From NCBI GenBank assembly GCA_030919125.1, contig CP121470.1, positions 1,302,001 through 1,366,000 of the forward strand: a stretch of DNA of 64,000 nucleotides. The letters run 5' to 3'. Both the position numbers and the translations under genes were made by a program. The notes below the pieces were generated by a model, which was not told where the DNA came from, searched no databases, and worked only from the letters and a program-made list of their open reading frames with translations. Of this stretch, positions 6,381-62,618 are shown piece by piece; the first letter of the stretch is position 1, and each line of letters opens with the position of its first letter. The DNA is from Methanoregula sp. SKADARSKE-2 (GTDB lineage Archaea > Halobacteriota > Methanomicrobia > Methanomicrobiales > Methanospirillaceae).

Positions 6381-7820
6381 TTATTTCGGAATCCACTGGA
6401 TATGCAGTGTTCTGAAAGCGTCATCCCGAAGGATTTTATCCAGCGTAAGGAGGGCAAGAAAATACACAAGAGCCCCGAATAGTACCATTGCTCCTGTCGT
6501 GAGGGCACTTTCCTGAACCGGAAGAAAGGTGCAGGCAAGAAGTGTCAGTGTCATAATTATCGTTGAGATGATGATATGTATAACCTGGGCTCTCTCGATA
6601 ACAATTGGAATTATGCCCATGAGGAAATGTCCCCCGATGATGAGGCAGATCAGAATGTTCATCAGAGATGCTATCGCAGCCCCTGTCATGCCCAGGACAG
6701 GTACAAGAATTATGGATAGAATAATATTTGCAGTGGTCCCGGCACCAAGTCCGTATACTGCCATCCGGACGTGATCGGTTGCCATCAGGTAATTGGAATA
6801 CAATTGATACACTGACTGGAATACCCGGGCCGCGATGATGATGATGAGGGCCGTTGCACCGGCAGCGAACGAGGCTCCATACACATAATACAATAATTGT
6901 TTTCCTAAGATAATTCCACCGGCAAGCATCGGAAGGGCAAGGATAAGGGAGTAGGTTGTTGCCCGTGAAAGCGATGCAGCAAGGGTACCCGTTTCCCCGG
7001 AAGCATTCCAGCGACTGACTTTGACATAGAGCGTATTACACAACGCGGTACTGACAAAGAGGGCAAATATGGAGAATGTCCAGCAGATCCCAAAGATCCC
7101 CGCTTCCGATACGGGCATGAAATGGGCAATGATAAGGATGTTTGCATTGTCGAAGAGGACCGTGCCGGAATTTATTACAAACACCCAGCCTGAAAATGAG
7201 AAGAGGCTCTTTACATGCGACCACTCAAATTTTTTCAGATGGTAATCGATATAGTTCAGTTCGAGTAAAAATTCAAGGAGAGTTCCGGCGATCAGACCTC
7301 CTACTAATCCAAACACTTCAAATCCGAGAAAAATCGCGACAACCTGAACGACAATACGGGCTGAATTATTCATCAATGTCGCCGCCGCCGCAAGACCCAG
7401 CCGGTTGCTCGCGGCAATTGACATTGCTACTGATGTTTGAAGTAGAGCAAGGCCGACTGCAATGATCAGAACCCAGAATAATCCTGATGCATTCAGATCC
7501 GCAAACCTGTCACGGAACAGGAGCAGTCCTGCAACAACAAAGATGAAGAGTCCCCCGCGAATAACCAGGCTCGCAGTAAAATACCTGTCCGGGTCTTTTC
7601 CTTCGCAAATTCGCTGCGTGGCGGCATAGCCGATACCCATATCGGTGATAACACCTAAAATGTTGAAGTTGGAGAGAAATACAAAATACGCTCCCAGGAT
7701 GCCGGCTCCAACCCCGTGTGCGTAAAAAATTGTTGCGAGAAAACCGATGAGGGTGATGCCGATGGAGGATACAAAAAACATTGTAGCATGACGCTGGACT
7801 TCCCGGTGGTTTTCACTCAT
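6381..7820 (-). CDS. Polysaccharide flippase (Wzx/MATE-like)
   Basis: A 479-aa membrane protein with about twelve to fourteen hydrophobic segments spread along the whole chain, starting with one at residues 14-34. It resembles the Wzx/RfbX group of the MOP superfamily, which moves lipid-linked oligosaccharides across the membrane. It is the only transporter of the glycan cluster, so it is the likely export step for the units assembled by the neighbouring glycosyltransferases. The start fits the ATG with an A/T-rich leader that holds a TATA-like element and a perfect inverted repeat. Confidence 0.88.
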   Translation of the reverse strand: MSENHREVQRHATMFFVSSIGITLIGFLATIFYAHGVGAGILGAYFVFLSNFNILGVITDMGIGYAATQRICEGKDPDRYFTASLVIRGGLFIFVVAGLLLFRDRFADLNASGLFWVLIIAVGLALLQTSVAMSIAASNRLGLAAAATLMNNSARIVVQVVAIFLGFEVFGLVGGLIAGTLLEFLLELNYIDYHLKKFEWSHVKSLFSFSGWVFVINSGTVLFDNANILIIAHFMPVSEAGIFGICWTFSIFALFVSTALCNTLYVKVSRWNASGETGTLAASLSRATTYSLILALPMLAGGIILGKQLLYYVYGASFAAGATALIIIIAARVFQSVYQLYSNYLMATDHVRMAVYGLGAGTTANIILSIILVPVLGMTGAAIASLMNILICLIIGGHFLMGIIPIVIERAQVIHIIISTIIMTLTLLACTFLPVQESALTTGAMVLFGALVYFLALLTLDKILRDDAFRTLHIQWIPK

Positions 7821-52737: not shown

Positions 52738-53328
52738 CTATTCTTTTCCACAAGGCCCGAAACTGCACGCAGTCTCCTTATATTTCCGAAGTTCGGATCC
52801 CGCCCGGTCAATGACCGTGCTGAAGATGTCGTTCCCGTGCGCATCGATGCCAACGACGAGCGGAAGGTGATCAAGCTCGATCGCCCAGATCGCTTCGGCC
52901 ATACCGAGATCCTTGAAGTACATATCCCTGAGCTTCATCCGGGCTGAGGCAAGCGCTGCACACCCGCCGGTGAAGGCAAAATAGACGCCCCGGCCCCGGA
53001 TCTGGTCCCGGACGGTCTTTCCCATCCCGCCTTTTCCTATGAGCCCCCGGACGCCAGCATCGAGAAGAAACCCCGAGATCTCGTTCATCCGGGCCGATGT
53101 CGTTGGCCCGGCGGCGACAACCATCCCGTGCTTGATGACCGGTCCGCAATGGTAGATGACTGCACCACGGGACGGGAAGGGGATCCCGTCCTCCATCATC
53201 CGGATGTGCGCTTCGTCGCGTGCGGTATAAACCATTCCCGAGAGCTCGACGCAGTCCCCCGCCTTCAGCGGAAGGATTTCATCACTAAGCGGTGTTCTGA
53301 GCTGGACGCACGAGACCGTCCCGGTCAT
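52738..53328 (-). CDS. fumB: Fumarase class I beta subunit
   Basis: 196-aa subunit matching the C-terminal domain of class I fumarase. ELSGMVYTARDEAH (29-42), YHCGPVIK (about 57-64), AAGPTTSARMN (about 71-81) and FTGGCAALAS are family motifs. It overlaps the alpha subunit gene by 4 bases at 53325-53328. Symbol follows common archaeal use; fumarate hydratase subunits may be named differently. It interconverts fumarate and malate. Confidence 0.92.
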   Translation of the reverse strand: MTGTVSCVQLRTPLSDEILPLKAGDCVELSGMVYTARDEAHIRMMEDGIPFPSRGAVIYHCGPVIKHGMVVAAGPTTSARMNEISGFLLDAGVRGLIGKGGMGKTVRDQIRGRGVYFAFTGGCAALASARMKLRDMYFKDLGMAEAIWAIELDHLPLVVGIDAHGNDIFSTVIDRAGSELRKYKETACSFGPCGKE

Positions 53329-54155
53329 CGTTTCACCTCGACCGTTGCGTGACGGTTGGCCCAGCACTGGACGTTTACAGCGACCGGGAGCGACGCGGTG
53401 TGGCACCAGGCGATTTGTATCTTTACGGCAAGTGCAGTGGTATTCCCGCCAAGGCCCATCGGCCCGATCCCGAGTTTGTTGATGGCAGAGCAGACCCGCT
53501 CCTCGTCCTCGTCCATGGTATCGACCGGGAGGAGGAGGGCTTCCTTTGCAAGCGCTGCGGCGCTGTCGAACGTCCCGCCGATCCCGACTCCGACGATGAC
53601 CGGAGGGCACGGCTTCCCTCCCGCAAGGAGCACGGTCTCCACAATGAAACTCTCGATCTGGTTCTTTTGTGACGGGAGGAGCATGGCGATCCGGGACATG
53701 TTCTCTGCACCGGCTCCCTTCGGGAGGACCGTGACCGTGAGCCGGTCACCCGGCTTCACGTGGACCGCCGGCATACCGAGGCCGGTATTGTCACCGGTGT
53801 TCTTCCGGGTAAGCGGGTGTACAACGTTCGGGCGGAGCGGGACCTCCTCGGTCGCCCGCCGGATCCCGTCTGCGACTGCATCGTACAGCTCCTGCGTGAA
53901 CGGGAGATCGGGAGGTACCGTGAGGTAGACCACCGGGACGCCGGTGTCCTGACAGAGCGGGACCCCGAGCCGTTCAGCCTCTTTGAGGTTGACAAGGATA
54001 TTGGCAAACTCACCGCGGGCGACCGGGTTTGTCTCGGCAGCAGCGGCCCGTTCGATGACCCGCATGACATCCGGAGGAAGCCGGATCACTGCCTCGAGGT
54101 AAGCCTGAAAGGCGGCATCCGCAAGCGCTGACCGGAGGGAGGTGGCATTCTGCAT
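53325..54155 (-). CDS. fumA: Fumarase class I alpha subunit
   Basis: 276-aa subunit that holds the 4Fe-4S cluster. PLCQDTGVPVVYL (66-78) contains the first cluster cysteine (Cys68); further conserved segments are VVHPLTRKNTGDNTG, KPCPPVIVGVGIGGTFDSA and GLGGNTTALAV. It is the first gene of the eight-gene run fumA-fumB-korD-korA-korB-korC-sucC-sucD. A TATA element is about 25-32 bases upstream, so the message is nearly leaderless. Confidence 0.93.
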   Translation of the reverse strand: MQNATSLRSALADAAFQAYLEAVIRLPPDVMRVIERAAAAETNPVARGEFANILVNLKEAERLGVPLCQDTGVPVVYLTVPPDLPFTQELYDAVADGIRRATEEVPLRPNVVHPLTRKNTGDNTGLGMPAVHVKPGDRLTVTVLPKGAGAENMSRIAMLLPSQKNQIESFIVETVLLAGGKPCPPVIVGVGIGGTFDSAAALAKEALLLPVDTMDEDEERVCSAINKLGIGPMGLGGNTTALAVKIQIAWCHTASLPVAVNVQCWANRHATVEVKR

Positions 54156-55410: not shown

Positions 55411-56094
55411 TTACTTCTTGCCGCCCTTTGAAGGGGCTGCGCCTTTCTTCTCATCCTTTGCGGGGGCTGCTGCCTTGCCGGCATCCTTCGCGCCCTTTGC
55501 AACCTCTGCTGCTGCTTCTTCGGTAACGACCGGTGCCGCAACGATCTTCTCACCGACGAGCTTGGGGGCAGCGATGATCTTGCCGCTGACCTTCAGCACA
55601 CTGGTCTTCAGATGGGACGGGGACGGGAGCTTGTATCCCGCGTGGTTCAGGGCATCCTTGATCTTCTCAAGGTACTGGGGGGTGGAATAGACGGTCATAA
55701 GTTTCTGGCCGGCCTCGACACGGGCTGCCGTGCCGACTGCCTTGCCGAATGCAAGGCGCATACCTTCCGAGACACGGTCCGCACCAGCGCCGGTTGCCTG
55801 CTTGTTCTCCCGAAGAACGTGGTGGGGGAAGACCCGTACCTTGAAGTGGAAGTTTGACCTGCCGACATCCTTCATCAGCCTCCGGTTCGCGGTAATGCGG
55901 GCCGCTTCAAGGGCGCTGTGCCGGATCTGGCATGCTTCTTCAACAACGAGATCAACTTCTGTCGGGAACTCCTGCGAGAGGTTGCCCATCTCGAACTGTA
56001 CAATCTTGCTTCCCGGAACACCGCCCATGTATTTCCTTCGGGTATAGGCTTTCTTCGAGATGTTCCTGTACATCTTTGCCGGTTTTCTGACCAT
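55411..56094 (-). CDS. rpl10e: Ribosomal protein L10e (uL16 family) with long C-terminal tail
   Basis: Large-subunit protein that contacts the A-site region. The 227-aa protein has the full L10e core of about 165 residues: [20 protein letters not shown] at the N-terminus, the [22 protein letters not shown] segment split over residues 92-113, and [27 protein letters not shown]. After residue 165 comes an extra tail of about 60 residues made mainly of Ala, Lys, Val and Glu (for example [33 protein letters not shown]). Such a tail is unusual for L10e. Confidence 0.93.
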
Positions 56095-56230: not shown

Positions 56231-56974
56231 TTACTGGTTAATAAGATCGAGAACAAACCGCCGGACTTTTGCAAAGTCCACACTGGTCCGATCCCGGGGC
56301 CGGTCCTCTTCGATAGTTACGATCTCGCGGATATGCCCGGGCCGGGGCGAGAGGACGACAATCCGGTCCGCAAGGAAGACCGCCTCGTCCACACTGTGCG
56401 TGACAAAGATGATGGTCTTCCGGGTCTTGACCCAGATATCGATGAGATCGAGCTGGAGCTTGTTCCGGGTCTGGGCATCGAGCGCCCCGAAGGGCTCGTC
56501 CATTAAAAGGACCGATGGCTCCACGGCAAGTGCCCTGACAACCGCCACACGCTGGCGCATCCCTCCTGACAACTCATACGGGTAACTGTTCCCAAAACCG
56601 GAGAGCCCGGCAAGTGCAAGGTACTTTTCGACAACAGGCTGGATCCCGGTTTTTTTGACACCCTGCAGCTCAAGACCGAACGCAATATTCTCGTTCACCG
56701 TGCGCCACGGGTACAGGGAGTAGTCCTGAAAGATCATCCCCAGTTTCGGGTTGGGGCGGTCAACGGTCATTCCGTCCATCAGCACACAGCCGGATGTCGG
56801 GTGATCGAGACCCGCAATAATCCGGAGGAGGGTCGTCTTCCCGCACCCGCTGGGGCCAAGCAGGCAGATGAACTCCGAATCGCCGACTTCGAAGTTGATA
56901 TCCGAGAGCGAAGTCACCAGTTCCCGCCCACCCTTGACAAACTGTTTCGAGAGATGATCAATTCTCAGGGTCAT
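56231..56974 (-). CDS. ABC transporter ATP-binding protein (nitrate/sulfonate/taurine type)
   Basis: 247-aa ATPase of an importer. Walker A GPSGCGKTT is at 40-48, the signature LSGGMRQRVAV near 139, Walker B VLLMDEPFGALD near 158-169 and the switch His in VTHSVDEAVFLADR near 193. The sequence is closest to SsuB/TauB/NrtC-like ATPases. It overlaps the permease gene by 4 bases and follows the binding protein and permease in one operon. Confidence 0.9.
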   Translation of the reverse strand: MTLRIDHLSKQFVKGGRELVTSLSDINFEVGDSEFICLLGPSGCGKTTLLRIIAGLDHPTSGCVLMDGMTVDRPNPKLGMIFQDYSLYPWRTVNENIAFGLELQGVKKTGIQPVVEKYLALAGLSGFGNSYPYELSGGMRQRVAVVRALAVEPSVLLMDEPFGALDAQTRNKLQLDLIDIWVKTRKTIIFVTHSVDEAVFLADRIVVLSPRPGHIREIVTIEEDRPRDRTSVDFAKVRRFVLDLINQ

Positions 56975-57771
56975 CGTTCCAGCTCCCTCCAGGCAAACGA
57001 GTGGCTGTCAACGAGCTTGAAGAGGTAGTCGCAGCCGATGCCGATGATCCCGATGACGATCATTCCTGCGATGATGACCGGCACCTGACCGAAGTTATAG
57101 GACGAGATGATGAGGTATCCGAGGCCGGAGTTCGTCCCCGGCATCATCTCTGCCGCGACTACGCACATCCATGCGATACCGAACCCGACCCGGAGGCCGG
57201 TCCAGATCGTCGGGGCGGCTCCCGGCAGGATGACCCGGGAAAGGATCTGCCGTTCCTTTGCTCCGAGGATCTGCGCGGCCTCGATCCAGGTCTTCTTTAC
57301 CCCTTTGACCCCGTCGAGCGTGTTCAGGAGGATCGGGAAGAAGGCGCCCATGCCGATGATAAAGATCATGGAGACCAGACCGATCTTGAACCACGCGAGC
57401 GTGAGCGGGACCCATGCAAGGGGCGGGATGGGCCGGAGGAGCTGCATCAACGAATCGAAGAGGTCGTGCACAATCTCCGACCTTCCCATTCCGACTCCGA
57501 GGGGGATTGCGAGGCCCGCGGCAGCGAGGAAACCGGCAATGACCCGCTCAAGGCTGATGATCGCGTTGTCGAACAGGCTTCCGGAACCAAACGTCAGTTC
57601 CCCGCTGAACGGGTTCAGGAGCACGGCAAAGACGGTCTCGAGCCGGGGGAGGATGAACGTTTTATTGAGCAGGATCGCGGCAACTTCCCATCCGACGATG
57701 ATGGCAACGGGAAGGAGGATCTTGAGGAGGGAGCGCGACGGGATAGCATGCCTGAAGGAGCTGCGGTTCAT
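56971..57771 (-). CDS. ABC transporter permease (SsuC/TauC-like)
   Basis: 266-aa inner-membrane protein with about six transmembrane segments. The cytoplasmic EAA loop is visible in EAAQILGAKERQILSRVILPGAAP (about 163-186, split over helices 4 and 5), the contact site for the ATPase. Resembles permeases for sulfonates, taurine or nitrate, whose substrate here is unknown. It lies 63 bases after the binding-protein gene. Confidence 0.9.
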   Translation of the reverse strand: MNRSSFRHAIPSRSLLKILLPVAIIVGWEVAAILLNKTFILPRLETVFAVLLNPFSGELTFGSGSLFDNAIISLERVIAGFLAAAGLAIPLGVGMGRSEIVHDLFDSLMQLLRPIPPLAWVPLTLAWFKIGLVSMIFIIGMGAFFPILLNTLDGVKGVKKTWIEAAQILGAKERQILSRVILPGAAPTIWTGLRVGFGIAWMCVVAAEMMPGTNSGLGYLIISSYNFGQVPVIIAGMIVIGIIGIGCDYLFKLVDSHSFAWRELER

Positions 57772-57834: not shown

Positions 57835-59082
57835 TTACGAGGACTCCTTAAAGGAGAGGCCGCTGTCTTTGAGGGCGAACTGGAGCAGGACGTCCTGGAT
57901 TGAGCCCTTTCCGGGCGCTGCGATCTTCAGCGGGTTGCCGGCTGCAGATCTCTGCTGTGCCCATGCGACGAAGCTCTTCCAGTCAGTTACCGGTGCATTT
58001 GGATCGACAATCAGACCGGATCCTTCGGTGTTGACCGGGTTGATGATCTTGATCGGGGTTCCCTTGTCTATCGCTGCGATCGCGGGGGGCACACCGAGGT
58101 AGCCCATCTGGACGATATCGGTTGCCGCCATCTGCATGACCTGGGGGCCTGCATCGCCACCGACAAGCCTGACTTCCGCTACCGGTACGCCGTTCACGAT
58201 CAGGTCAGCCATATCCGGGCGGGCCATTGTTGCATCGCGGGGCTTGAGGGCAATGCCGTACGTGTTGTTGAAGTACTGCCATTTCTTGAGCGCGATATGG
58301 AGCGCAGCAGAGTGCATGTCCCCATTCAAGTACCCGATGGTGATCGGCTCGATCATCTTTGCCGGTGTCCTGAAGGAGTTTCCTGCAACCATCGCTTTTG
58401 CACTCTGGTAGGGTGCGAAGTTGAAGAGCTGGGCGTCGAGCCGGGCAGAGTCCGAGGTCTTCAGCTGGTTTGTAACGTACCCGAGCTGGATCTGGGTGTT
58501 CACGAACTGCTTGGTCGCATTGACCCATGCAGGAGTCGGCTCGTTGGTGTACTTCACGGTGGGAAATGCATCTTCAAGAACGTCGACCGAGGGGACGGTT
58601 ACATTGCCGTACGTGAAGTTGCTGCCGCCGACAAGGAACGCCGCATCGAGCTGGGAGGCCTCCTCCGGGTGGTCAATGATATATTTGCTTGAGAGCTGGG
58701 TGAGGGCACTCACCGAGGAGACGATCCCGGGGTTCTGGGCAATGAGCGAATCGCTTGCAAAGAGGATGCAGCAGGGGTGGTTGGCATTGCTCGCAATCGG
58801 GGGGAGGTTCCCGGAGTAGGCAACCACTTTCCCAAGCTTGCTCTCGCTGCCGATGGAGACGAAAGGCTGCCATGCGATATACCCGTCGATCTGTTTTGTG
58901 GCAAGGAGCATCGGCATCGGGCCGACACCTTTGCTGTACAGGATTCCTACGGTCGCTCCGGCTTCTGCCGGGGCGGTCGTTGTTGCTGGTGTTCCGGATC
59001 CGGCCGGCTGCGTGCAGCCGGCGATGAGCAGCAAAATAATGGCTGCGACAAGCACAAGTGCCGTGAATCGAAGAGATCTCAT
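57835..59082 (-). CDS. ABC importer substrate-binding lipoprotein, apparently circularly permuted
   Basis: 415 aa from the ATG at 59082. The signal peptide with lipobox (LLLIAGC, Cys near residue 23) is followed by a Thr/Ala/Pro linker. Then comes the C-terminal lobe of a nitrate/taurine-type binding protein: IDGYIAWQPFV and NHPCCILFASD, which normally follow the N-lobe. The N-lobe comes afterwards: VPVAEVRLVGGDAGP, VPPAIAAIDKGTPIKII, GSGLIVDPNAP and APGKGSIQDVLLQFALKDSGL, and the protein ends there. So the usual N-lobe/C-lobe order appears swapped around a new start. A longer start at 59154 is unlikely, because the lipobox would sit too far in. Confidence 0.75.
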   Translation of the reverse strand: MRSLRFTALVLVAAIILLLIAGCTQPAGSGTPATTTAPAEAGATVGILYSKGVGPMPMLLATKQIDGYIAWQPFVSIGSESKLGKVVAYSGNLPPIASNANHPCCILFASDSLIAQNPGIVSSVSALTQLSSKYIIDHPEEASQLDAAFLVGGSNFTYGNVTVPSVDVLEDAFPTVKYTNEPTPAWVNATKQFVNTQIQLGYVTNQLKTSDSARLDAQLFNFAPYQSAKAMVAGNSFRTPAKMIEPITIGYLNGDMHSAALHIALKKWQYFNNTYGIALKPRDATMARPDMADLIVNGVPVAEVRLVGGDAGPQVMQMAATDIVQMGYLGVPPAIAAIDKGTPIKIINPVNTEGSGLIVDPNAPVTDWKSFVAWAQQRSAAGNPLKIAAPGKGSIQDVLLQFALKDSGLSFKESS

Positions 59083-59304: not shown

Positions 59305-59832
59305 ATGGTACAGGTCGACCCGATCGACAAGCTCATACGCGCTGCTCTTATCTCCGATGAAGAGTCTGTCTTAACCCTTACCCATCTTCTCCACCACCTC
59401 CGTATCAGCGTCCGGGAATTGTCCGAGAAGAGCGGGATCGCACAGAGCTCACCCTATAAGATATTGCATGGCAAGGGATCGCCCAACTTTGCCACCCTCA
59501 GGGAGATCATCAATGCCCTCCGCCAGTTCTATCATGGGGGCGAGGAAGACTTCATCCGCTTGATTGCTGCCCGGCAAGTCCTTGAGAGCGTGGAGGACCG
59601 GGTCATCGATATTGAGGGGCATCGGCGGAGGGTCCGGGAATACCCGGTTCATACCATGGAAGATGCGATCGTTGCTGCAGTCCGGGCCGGGAGGGGGGCG
59701 CCCGCGATCGTTTGTGCACCCATCGTTTCCAGTGTCATCGAGCAACTCGTCCACATCCCGGTTGCAACCATCATTCCCAGTGAATCGGTCAAGAGAGCTA
59801 TCGAAGGTGCGGCTCGCAAGGTGTGGTTTTAA
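59305..59832 (+). CDS. Transcriptional regulator, HTH plus ligand domain (COG1709-like)
   Basis: A 175-aa protein. An N-terminal XRE-like helix-turn-helix is visible: RISVRELSEKSGIAQSSPYKILHGKGSPN (split; about 34-62). The remaining 100 residues (DIEGHRRRVREYPVHTMEDAIVAAVRAGRG, and IPVATIIPSESVKRAI) form a small ligand or dimer domain found in archaeal predicted regulators. It lies divergently from the ABC operon, with an inverted repeat between, so it may control that operon or argH, which follows 57 bases later. Confidence 0.75.
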   Translation: MVQVDPIDKLIRAALISDEESVLTLTHLLHHLRISVRELSEKSGIAQSSPYKILHGKGSPNFATLREIINALRQFYHGGEEDFIRLIAARQVLESVEDRVIDIEGHRRRVREYPVHTMEDAIVAAVRAGRGAPAIVCAPIVSSVIEQLVHIPVATIIPSESVKRAIEGAARKVWF

Positions 59833-59889: not shown

Positions 59890-61383
59890 ATGCGAACGGA
59901 CGTAGTAAGGCTGGGGCGCCTTTCCGGCGAGAGGACGGGAGAGATGATGAAATTCCTCTCATCTATGCGTGCTGACCGCTGCATTGCCGATGCCGATATC
60001 CTTGTCGATATTGCGCACGTGCTGATGCTGGATAAGCAGAAGATCATCGACCGCGAGATAACGAAAGAACTGATCCCCCCGCTGCTCGAACTCTTCGATG
60101 AGGGAATTCCCGAAGAGGTCTTCGACGACCGGTTCGAGGACGTCCACGCGGGGATCGAGTCGCTGATAATCGAGGCGATCGGTGCCGAGGCCGGGGGACG
60201 GATGCACATGGGACGCTCCCGGAACGATGAGGTCGCAACCTGTATCCGGATCAAGCTCCGGGAAGACCTCCTCAAGCAGATGTCAGCACTCTTAAAGGTC
60301 CGGGAGGTCCTGGTCGCCCTCTCGGAGCAGCACATCGAGACGGTGATGCCGGGATTCACCCACCTGCAGCATGCCCAGCCGACCGTCCTTGCCCATCACC
60401 TTCTCGCGTACGAGCAGCTCTTCTCCCGGGATTTTGACCGGCTGAAAGAGGCCTATGCCCGGGTCAACCTCTCCCCGCTCGGGGCCGCAGCGTTCGCCTC
60501 GACCGGCTATCCGATCAACCGCGAATATACCGCGACTTTGCTCGGTTTTGACGGTGTTGCGGCAAACACCATGGACGCGGTCGCCTCCCGCGACTTCGCA
60601 CTGGAGACACTCGCATCCCTCTCCATCCTCATGACCAACACGAGCCGGCTCTGCGAGGAGCTGGTTATCTGGAGCACCTCCTTTGTGAAATTTGTCAGTC
60701 TCGACGATGCATTCTGTTCGACTTCTTCCATCATGCCCCAGAAGAAGAATCCGGACACTGCCGAGATCATGCGGGCGAAGACCGGCTCGGTCTTCGGCGC
60801 GTTCACGGGAGCTTTCGTCACGGTCAAAGGCCTCCCGATGAGCTACAACCGCGACCTGCAGGAGCTCACCCCCCATATCTGGCGCGGGATGCGGGATGCA
60901 AAGGAAAGTCTCCGGCTCCTCGTAGACATGCTCTCCAGCGCCACGTTTGACACTGAACGGATGAGGGAAGAAGCGGCAAGAGGGTTCTCGACGGCTACGG
61001 AGCTTGCCGATACCCTGGTCAGGTCGTACGGCCTGCCGTTCAGGACGGCCCACAATATCGTAGGGCGGGCGGTCAAGAAGGGCGATCTCTCGCTCACTAC
61101 CCTTGAAGAGGCGGCAAAGGAACTGGATCCAGGCCTCTCTCTTATGGGAAAGGCACTCACTCAGGCTGCTATCGATGAAGTTCTCGAAGCTCAGTACTCG
61201 GTCTCCCTGCGGAAGGCAACCGGGGGCCCGGCCCCGCTCGCGATCAAGATCGCGATAGGAGAACGCAAGAAACAGCTCGACGCGGACTCATGCGTTATCG
61301 ATGAGAAGCTCGCAAAACTGAAGAGAGCAAAGGAAGATCTTATTGCCGATGCACGGAGGCTGGTACCATTACAAGCGGAATAG
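59890..61383 (+). CDS. argH: Argininosuccinate lyase
   Basis: Releases fumarate to make arginine, the last step of arginine synthesis. 497 aa. The three family regions are SRNDEVATCIRIKLR (110-124), THLQHAQPTVLAHH (157-170, catalytic His) and SSIMPQKKNPDTAE (279-292, with the catalytic Ser). A GGGAGGT ribosome-binding sequence lies before the ATG. The last 60 residues (about 430-497) are a helical tail. It starts 57 bases after the regulator. Confidence 0.96.
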   Translation: MRTDVVRLGRLSGERTGEMMKFLSSMRADRCIADADILVDIAHVLMLDKQKIIDREITKELIPPLLELFDEGIPEEVFDDRFEDVHAGIESLIIEAIGAEAGGRMHMGRSRNDEVATCIRIKLREDLLKQMSALLKVREVLVALSEQHIETVMPGFTHLQHAQPTVLAHHLLAYEQLFSRDFDRLKEAYARVNLSPLGAAAFASTGYPINREYTATLLGFDGVAANTMDAVASRDFALETLASLSILMTNTSRLCEELVIWSTSFVKFVSLDDAFCSTSSIMPQKKNPDTAEIMRAKTGSVFGAFTGAFVTVKGLPMSYNRDLQELTPHIWRGMRDAKESLRLLVDMLSSATFDTERMREEAARGFSTATELADTLVRSYGLPFRTAHNIVGRAVKKGDLSLTTLEEAAKELDPGLSLMGKALTQAAIDEVLEAQYSVSLRKATGGPAPLAIKIAIGERKKQLDADSCVIDEKLAKLKRAKEDLIADARRLVPLQAE

Positions 61384-61394
61384 AATCAAGCGGC

Positions 61395-62618
61395 GTGAAA
61401 TCCGGTGACATCGTCCGGTGCGAATACGGCGGGACGTCCCGGAAGGGTACGTACATCACGAGCAGGAACGGGATGTCGGTCATCAAGCTGGACTCAGGAT
61501 ATAATATCGGAATCCCCCCGCAGTCATGCAGCTCTGTCGAACGCCCGGTCATCGAACCCGGAAAGAAACTTGAGCTCGTGCAGGACAAAAACCTGCCTGA
61601 ACTCGCCATCGTCTCGACCGGCGGCACGATCGCAAGCCGCATCGATTACCGGACCGGGTCCGTAACCAGCCAGTCGGATGCTGCGGCGATCCTGCACGCG
61701 ATCCCCGAGCTGAAGAAAGTCGCGAATTTTACCACCAGGTCGCTCTATACGATCCTCTCGGAGAACATGACCCCCCGGATCTGGCAGGAGCTTGCCCGGG
61801 CGGTCTTTGAAGAGATCCAGCGGGGAGTTACGGGGGTTATTGTTACCCACGGTACGGATACGATGACCTACACGGCCGCGGCGCTCAGCTTTATGATCGA
61901 TACACCGGTCCCGATCATTCTTGTAGGATCCCAGCGGTCGGCCGACAGGCCATCAAGCGATAATGCTATGAACGCGGTCTGCGCTGCAAGAGCAGCCCGC
62001 AGTGATCTCGGGGAGGTTGCTGTTGTGATGCATGCCTCAACGAACGACGACGCCTGCTCCATCCACCGGGGCACCCGGGTCCGCAAGATGCACACCTCGC
62101 AGAGGGATGCCTTCCGGAGCATCGGGATCCCCCCGATTGGGACGGTTGCTTACCCGTCGCTCGAAGTGAAATTGAGCTGCGACGCTGCCCGACGCAATTC
62201 CTGCAAGCCTGCGCTTCACGATAAGCTCGACGAGCGCTGCGCTCTGATCGCGTTCCACCCTGGGATATCACCGGATATCCTCGAGGCGTACGAAAGGTAT
62301 CACGGAATCGTCCTTTCTGGAACGGGGCTCGGGCATGTGTGCACGGAACTCATCCCAAATCTCAAAAAACTCATCGACAATGGGACAACGATCATGATGA
62401 CCTCGCAGTGCCTGAACGGGAAGGTATGCGATCGTGTCTATGACACCGGCCGCGATCTGCTGGAGGCCGGCGTCATCGAAGGGGGGGATATGCTCCCCGA
62501 AGTTGCGCTGGTAAAGATGATGTGGGTGCTGGGGAACGAGAAGGATAAGGGGAGGGTGCGACACCTTCTCCTGACGGATCTCAAAGGGGAATGCAACCGG
62601 AGGAGGACCCATGGCTGA
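61395..62618 (+). CDS. gatD: Glu-tRNA(Gln) amidotransferase subunit D
   Basis: Asparaginase-like subunit of the archaeal GatDE enzyme that makes Gln-tRNA(Gln). 407 aa. An N-terminal beta-barrel (about 1-70) precedes the asparaginase fold: STGGTIASRIDYRTG (74-88, first catalytic Thr), VIVTHGTDTMTYTAAALSFM (about 150-170, second catalytic Thr/Asp/Lys region) and VVMHASTNDD. The gene overlaps gatE by 8 bases, so both subunits are coupled. A G7 run near 62486 is within the coding region. Confidence 0.95.
   Translation: MKSGDIVRCEYGGTSRKGTYITSRNGMSVIKLDSGYNIGIPPQSCSSVERPVIEPGKKLELVQDKNLPELAIVSTGGTIASRIDYRTGSVTSQSDAAAILHAIPELKKVANFTTRSLYTILSENMTPRIWQELARAVFEEIQRGVTGVIVTHGTDTMTYTAAALSFMIDTPVPIILVGSQRSADRPSSDNAMNAVCAARAARSDLGEVAVVMHASTNDDACSIHRGTRVRKMHTSQRDAFRSIGIPPIGTVAYPSLEVKLSCDAARRNSCKPALHDKLDERCALIAFHPGISPDILEAYERYHGIVLSGTGLGHVCTELIPNLKKLIDNGTTIMMTSQCLNGKVCDRVYDTGRDLLEAGVIEGGDMLPEVALVKMMWVLGNEKDKGRVRHLLLTDLKGECNRRRTHG

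Follow-up and report, generated by a model that had tools for sequence, protein, structure and literature searches.

Natural permutation of the receptor of an ABC importer is rarely described, and the one precedent that was found has a different fold. This is TpMglB-2 (Tp0684) from Treponema pallidum, a permuted ligand-binding lipoprotein for which the designation 'Type Ic / Cluster Bc' was proposed and whose topology its authors tie to membrane tethering (PMC4990184). No report of a permuted substrate-binding protein (SBP) of the type II fold, or of one in methanogens, was found in the literature searched, outside of which most subscription journals lay. In Methanosarcina acetivorans, SsuABC was named as the transporter for coenzyme M, starvation for which induces it together with cysteate synthase and comDE (PMC12068725). 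SsuABC is stated to be present in nearly all methanogens, a distribution mirrored by bromoethanesulfonate sensitivity (PMC10658910).

The window analyzed here is a stretch of 64,000 nucleotides from contig CP121470.1 of Methanoregula sp. SKADARSKE-2. It encodes an SBP whose halves are swapped, adjoined by the genes of a permease (PF00528) and an ATPase (PF00005), as anticipated in the initial annotation. The features of the locus are as follows; the identities of the flanking genes are those we take them to have from sequence knowledge.

53325–54155, minus strand: flanking gene, presumably fumarase-like (sequence knowledge; synteny)
55411–56094, minus strand: flanking gene, presumably for ribosomal protein L10e (sequence knowledge; synteny)
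56231–56974, minus strand: ATPase, gene overlapping that of the permease by 4 bp (PF00005)
56971–57771, minus strand: permease of a clade seen only with permuted SBPs (PF00528; permease trees)
57835–59082, minus strand: circularly permuted substrate-binding lipoprotein of 415 aa (ORF; swapped Pfam/NCBIfam segments; start and order as in L001–L003)
57838–58347, minus strand: aa 246–415, canonical first half, now last (hhalign to canonical positions 35–170)
58348–58392, minus strand: aa 231–245, linker bridging the former C- and N-termini (gap between the two aligned blocks)
58393–58956, minus strand: aa 43–230, canonical second half, now first (hhalign to canonical positions 173–337)
59014–59082, minus strand: signal peptide and lipobox (IAGC, Cys23), the N-terminal anchor (sequence; Cys23 invariant in A1)
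59305–59832, plus strand: divergent HTH regulator, found at the locus in its canonical and its permuted form alike (weak HTH_26/HTH_3; synteny)
59890–61383, plus strand: flanking gene, presumably argH (sequence knowledge; synteny)
61395–62618, plus strand: flanking gene, presumably gatD-like (sequence knowledge; synteny)

The start of the SBP at 59082 agrees with that of homologues L001–L003, from Methanoregula / Methanomicrobiales; the start of an alternative 439-aa ORF is not backed by the homologues. By synteny, the gene belongs to a conserved locus of the arrangement gatD-argH-HTH / SBP-permease-ATPase / L10e-fumA, which is occupied in one of two ways: by a permuted SBP together with a permease of a clade of its own, or by an SBP in canonical order accompanied by a different permease.

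The swapped order is evident from several kinds of profile comparison. Positions 145–278 of TIGR01728 (SsuA family) match aa 59–207 of the window SBP and positions 36–149 of PF13379 (NMT1_2) match aa 303–410, which puts the family's second half ahead of its first. The protein scores 51.7 bits against PF13379, above the gathering cut-off of 24.7, and thus belongs to this family by score but not by the order of its segments, which match in two swapped stretches; after rotation they match in one, with 59.3 bits. TIGR01728 yields 55.3 bits in native order and 61.1 bits upon rotation, both under its curated cut-off of 163.5. In a rotation scan with a profile of 18 canonical relatives, the best single domain of the window SBP rises from 77 bits in the encoded order to 159.5 bits when rotated near aa 230–245. 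As a control, the canonical paralogue L007, encoded in the window genome, reaches 139 bits without rotation, and no rotation improves this by more than about 1 bit. In profile-profile alignments, the rotated permuted family is continuous with the canonical SsuA/NMT1-type family over positions 40–337 (294 columns, E 2e-57), whereas the native order aligns in two complementary pieces, 173–337 followed by 35–170. No canonical segment is missing or duplicated, and the scan and the alignments together indicate that each is present once in a rotated order. The initial reading of a rearranged yet full-length protein is thereby borne out. The permuted family carries in addition an insertion of about 25 aa in the first half, in the RPDMADLIVNGVPVAE region, and its members are about 25–30% identical to canonical relatives.

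The permuted order lies far beyond chance. Half-profiles run on all fetched loci found 73 distinct proteins with the second half first and 18 relatives in standard order, so homologues of the same order do occur in other Methanomicrobiales. An artefact of assembly or annotation is ruled out by the many independent genomes, some of them on single contigs. The possibility raised at the outset that a local deletion created this gene among homologues of standard order is excluded, as every full-length close homologue is permuted. Two proteins retrieved in the genome scan (L004 and L005) were rejected as relatives; they are SBPs of the tricarboxylate type, and their match is short and resembles a chance one.

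The transporter most likely takes up coenzyme M (2-mercaptoethanesulfonate) or a closely related sulfonate. Coenzyme M import is the best-supported predicted role, and on genomic context and literature we hold it to be rather likely, because com genes neighbor operons of this kind, a role of SsuABC in this import is published, and the operon is kept where the biosynthesis genes are absent. In L085, a locus of another order, the permuted operon comes after comDE, comB and comA, and comDE adjoins the canonical operons L098 and L101. In the window genome, cysteate synthase (603 bits against TIGR03844) and comDE are located about 3–4 kb from a paralogous pair of genes (L007), one for an HTH protein and one for an SBP-like protein without signal peptide. 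The conserved HPCC cysteines of the permuted SBP could, as a speculation, touch a thiol. It is somewhat unlikely that the same architecture serves a different sulfonate or small anion (taurine, sulfoacetate, nitrate-like). The literature searched yielded nothing of relevance on the Sao system. Similarity of the SBP, the permease and the ATPase extends to the Tau, Ntr and Sao families, with SaoA, ntrCD and TauB as the best NCBIfam matches of the window ATPase, all under cut-off, and the operon itself adjoins com genes in another order only and not at the window locus. Against a different ligand stand the physical linkage to coenzyme M genes at two separate places, the published assignment of SsuABC (PMC12068725, PMC10658910), and the retention of the operon in genomes that lack coenzyme M biosynthesis genes.

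This retention is seen as follows. Cysteate synthase is encoded in 116 of the 232 genomes of the order, and 30 genomes without it were examined, chosen by us and mostly near-complete, though partly drafts. None of these 30 has comA, and 29 lack comDE, the remaining one having a weak match below cut-off; mcrA is present in 28. All 30 carry one version of the operon, 17 of them the permuted one only. These 17 permuted-only genomes are without cysteate synthase, comDE and comA, and 16 have mcrA. The pattern suggests that coenzyme M auxotrophy is widespread among methanogens of the Methanomicrobiales. If coenzyme M is the substrate, the transporter bears on the life of methanogens that do not make the coenzyme and on sensitivity to the inhibitor bromoethanesulfonate.

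A pair of HTH and SBP-like genes of the kind described above was noted at L152 (G000:C1:168000-187000). It consists of a canonical-order SBP-like gene without signal peptide (L152:5853-6899, minus strand) and an HTH gene (6877-7365, minus strand) that is a paralogue of the window regulator; the adjoining cluster encodes cysteate synthase and comDE along with an ABC-type ATPase and a HypB-like GTPase. The signal-less protein appears to be a ligand sensor in the cytoplasm that serves coenzyme M metabolism.

Permuted full-length matches were found in families f1, f2, f3 and f5 among the 232 Methanomicrobiales genomes; families f1 and f6 also contain a second group of permuted proteins, which are more distant and score about 200 bits. 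In the phylum sample, one permuted operon lies outside the Methanomicrobiales (G369/L085). A scan of viral contigs found no permuted SBP. The operons of the second group (L069–L084) lie at other loci and have a distant ATPase; their SBPs have an N-terminal hydrophobic anchor, mostly without lipobox, and they are found in genomes of either operon type at the argH locus.

The permuted SBPs all fall into a single clade (SH-aLRT 99), and the same holds when each half is analyzed separately. This disfavors the alternative given in the initial annotation, namely that the C-terminal part of one paralogue was fused to the N-terminal part of another, which we consider improbable. The first-half tree places the permuted set nearest to L089/L095 and the second-half tree brings no canonical group clearly nearest, as a fusion might leave it, positions that are imprecise for each half at about 25–30% identity to canonical relatives. 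A fusion is opposed by the single clade obtained with either half, by halves that are exactly complementary, and by the existence of tandem copies of one gene. Such tandem SBP duplicates occur in the permuted version at L086:519-3194 and L087:4074-6643, and in the canonical version at G069:C155:181-2411. Tandem duplication is the usual route to circular permutation, and these copies are the kind of intermediate from which it can arise. A genuine and ancient permutation is the best explanation of the gene.

At the argH locus, the two operon versions exclude each other. A permuted SBP of the first group is present in 100 genomes (2 of them counted from partial matches), a canonical one in 116, neither in 16 and both in none (n = 232; Fisher p 9e-49, a value that ignores phylogeny). 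The tree of the flanking genes requires about 9 switches of SBP type, at least 8 of which are forced by well supported branches, while the SBP, permease and ATPase trees show 1 switch each; the flank, permease and ATPase trees were computed with a 'quick' method from 40–42 loci of our choice. Some switches separate sister species of the same genus. Between the sister loci L124, with a canonical SBP, and L126, with a permuted one, identity is 91% in argH, 90% in L10e and 81% in the HTH regulator, but only 23% in the SBP, 36% in the permease and 59% in the ATPase. At L114 and L128, the regulators are 92% identical despite the different operons.

The simplest reading of these comparisons is that the whole operon has been replaced repeatedly between conserved flanks, presumably by recombination through them. 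Such replacement implies that the two versions are functionally interchangeable, and most likely they do the same job. The operon would thus be one of two alternative transporters in the slot beside argH, both of them probably under the same divergent HTH regulator. An ancestor that had both operons, followed by differential loss rather than replacement, is less probable still than a fusion: it would equally be expected to leave a patchy distribution, but not a single one of 232 genomes has both versions in spite of switches between sister species, and both fill the identical slot.

The permuted SBP is linked to a permease of its own. The permeases of the first group, the second group, the tandem locus L087 and L085 cluster in a single clade (99), to which no permease paired with a canonical SBP belongs. 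Identity to the permease of the window is 55–87% at permuted loci and about 33–40% at canonical loci. In L085, a permuted-type SBP and permease are combined with an ATPase that groups with the canonical-type ATPases of its own family (f10), which suggests that the SBP and permease are a matched unit and the ATPase is exchangeable. The permuted SBP would accordingly be expected to pass its ligand to its clade-specific permease, with the adjacent ATPase supplying the power. This site (L085:998-2521, minus strand) has the permuted SBP and permease, the resident-type ATPase and also remnants of a second permease in two overlapping frames, and is possibly a snapshot of a transporter swap.

The structural consequences of the permutation were deduced from the positions of the aligned segments. 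The breakpoint would fall between the helix SIQDVLLQFALKDSGL, after which the chain of the window SBP ends, and the strand TVGILYS. Type II fold knowledge assigns this terminal helix to lobe 2, and the breakpoint would then lie inside lobe 2 and away from the cleft, so the altered ligand access suggested initially finds no support. The chain is predicted to start in the middle of lobe 2, to run to the old C-terminus and over a short linker to the old N-terminus, and to end in lobe 2. Lobe 1 would thus be continuous and lobe 2 discontinuous, and the N-terminal lipid anchor should sit on lobe 2 and not on lobe 1. A PDB search with the canonical profile matches NrtA/CmpA/TauA/SsuA-type chains, and searches of PDB sequences with the window protein or A1/A2 gave nothing convincing. 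A compact type II fold is probable for the permuted SBP. That each half folds on its own, or that halves of two chains pair, is the least probable alternative of all. The pLDDT of 37 that AlphaFold2 gave the window SBP and L001–L003, on a too shallow alignment, is in its favor; against it, both halves and the junction are conserved in 73 proteins and every profile segment is present once.

Taken as a whole, an ancient permutation, interchangeable operons, a permease of the receptor's own, and coenzyme M or a close sulfonate as ligand make up an explanation that we regard as likely. A more far-reaching picture is tentative and, in our judgment, doubtful: two coenzyme M importers would be swapped at one slot throughout the order, the permuted receptor would need its matched permease, its topology would set the docking, and selection on the exposed receptor (for example by toxic coenzyme M analogues or viruses) would sustain the swaps. 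The permuted receptor is spread across a major methanogen order and tied to its own permease clade, and its repeated swaps under a shared regulator amount to a natural experiment in domain reordering, run many times. Since canonical and permuted versions replace each other at one site, the effect of topology and tethering on docking, affinity and selectivity can be tested.

The comparison with known systems defines what is particular to this locus. The window SBP shares with TpMglB-2 the natural circular permutation of an ABC-transporter lipoprotein, with all segments present once. TpMglB-2, in contrast, has a type I/cluster B sugar-binding fold whose permuted strands belong to the N lobe, features that the window SBP does not share; the latter belongs to the NMT1/SsuA type II family, has its breakpoint probably in lobe 2, and alternates with a canonical version. 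The operon has the composition of SsuABC of Methanosarcina acetivorans, namely an SsuA-type SBP, a single permease and an ATPase; canonical relatives occur in further families of the phylum, where some are likewise accompanied by an HTH regulator of this type, and the window operon shares its slot with a canonical SsuA-type operon and excludes it. It differs from SsuABC in the order of the halves and in its own permease clade, and its role in coenzyme M import is predicted from context. All segments of the SsuA/TauA/NMT1 families (TIGR01728, TIGR01729, PF13379; PDB 2x26, 6ssy, 3un6) are common to the window SBP, which is set apart by the permutation and the insertion. In-situ displacement of operon genes by xenologues, with the locus unchanged, is a known concept, for which the literature searched offered no direct match; here, by comparison, it concerns a three-gene transporter with about 9 alternations, one version of which carries a permuted receptor.
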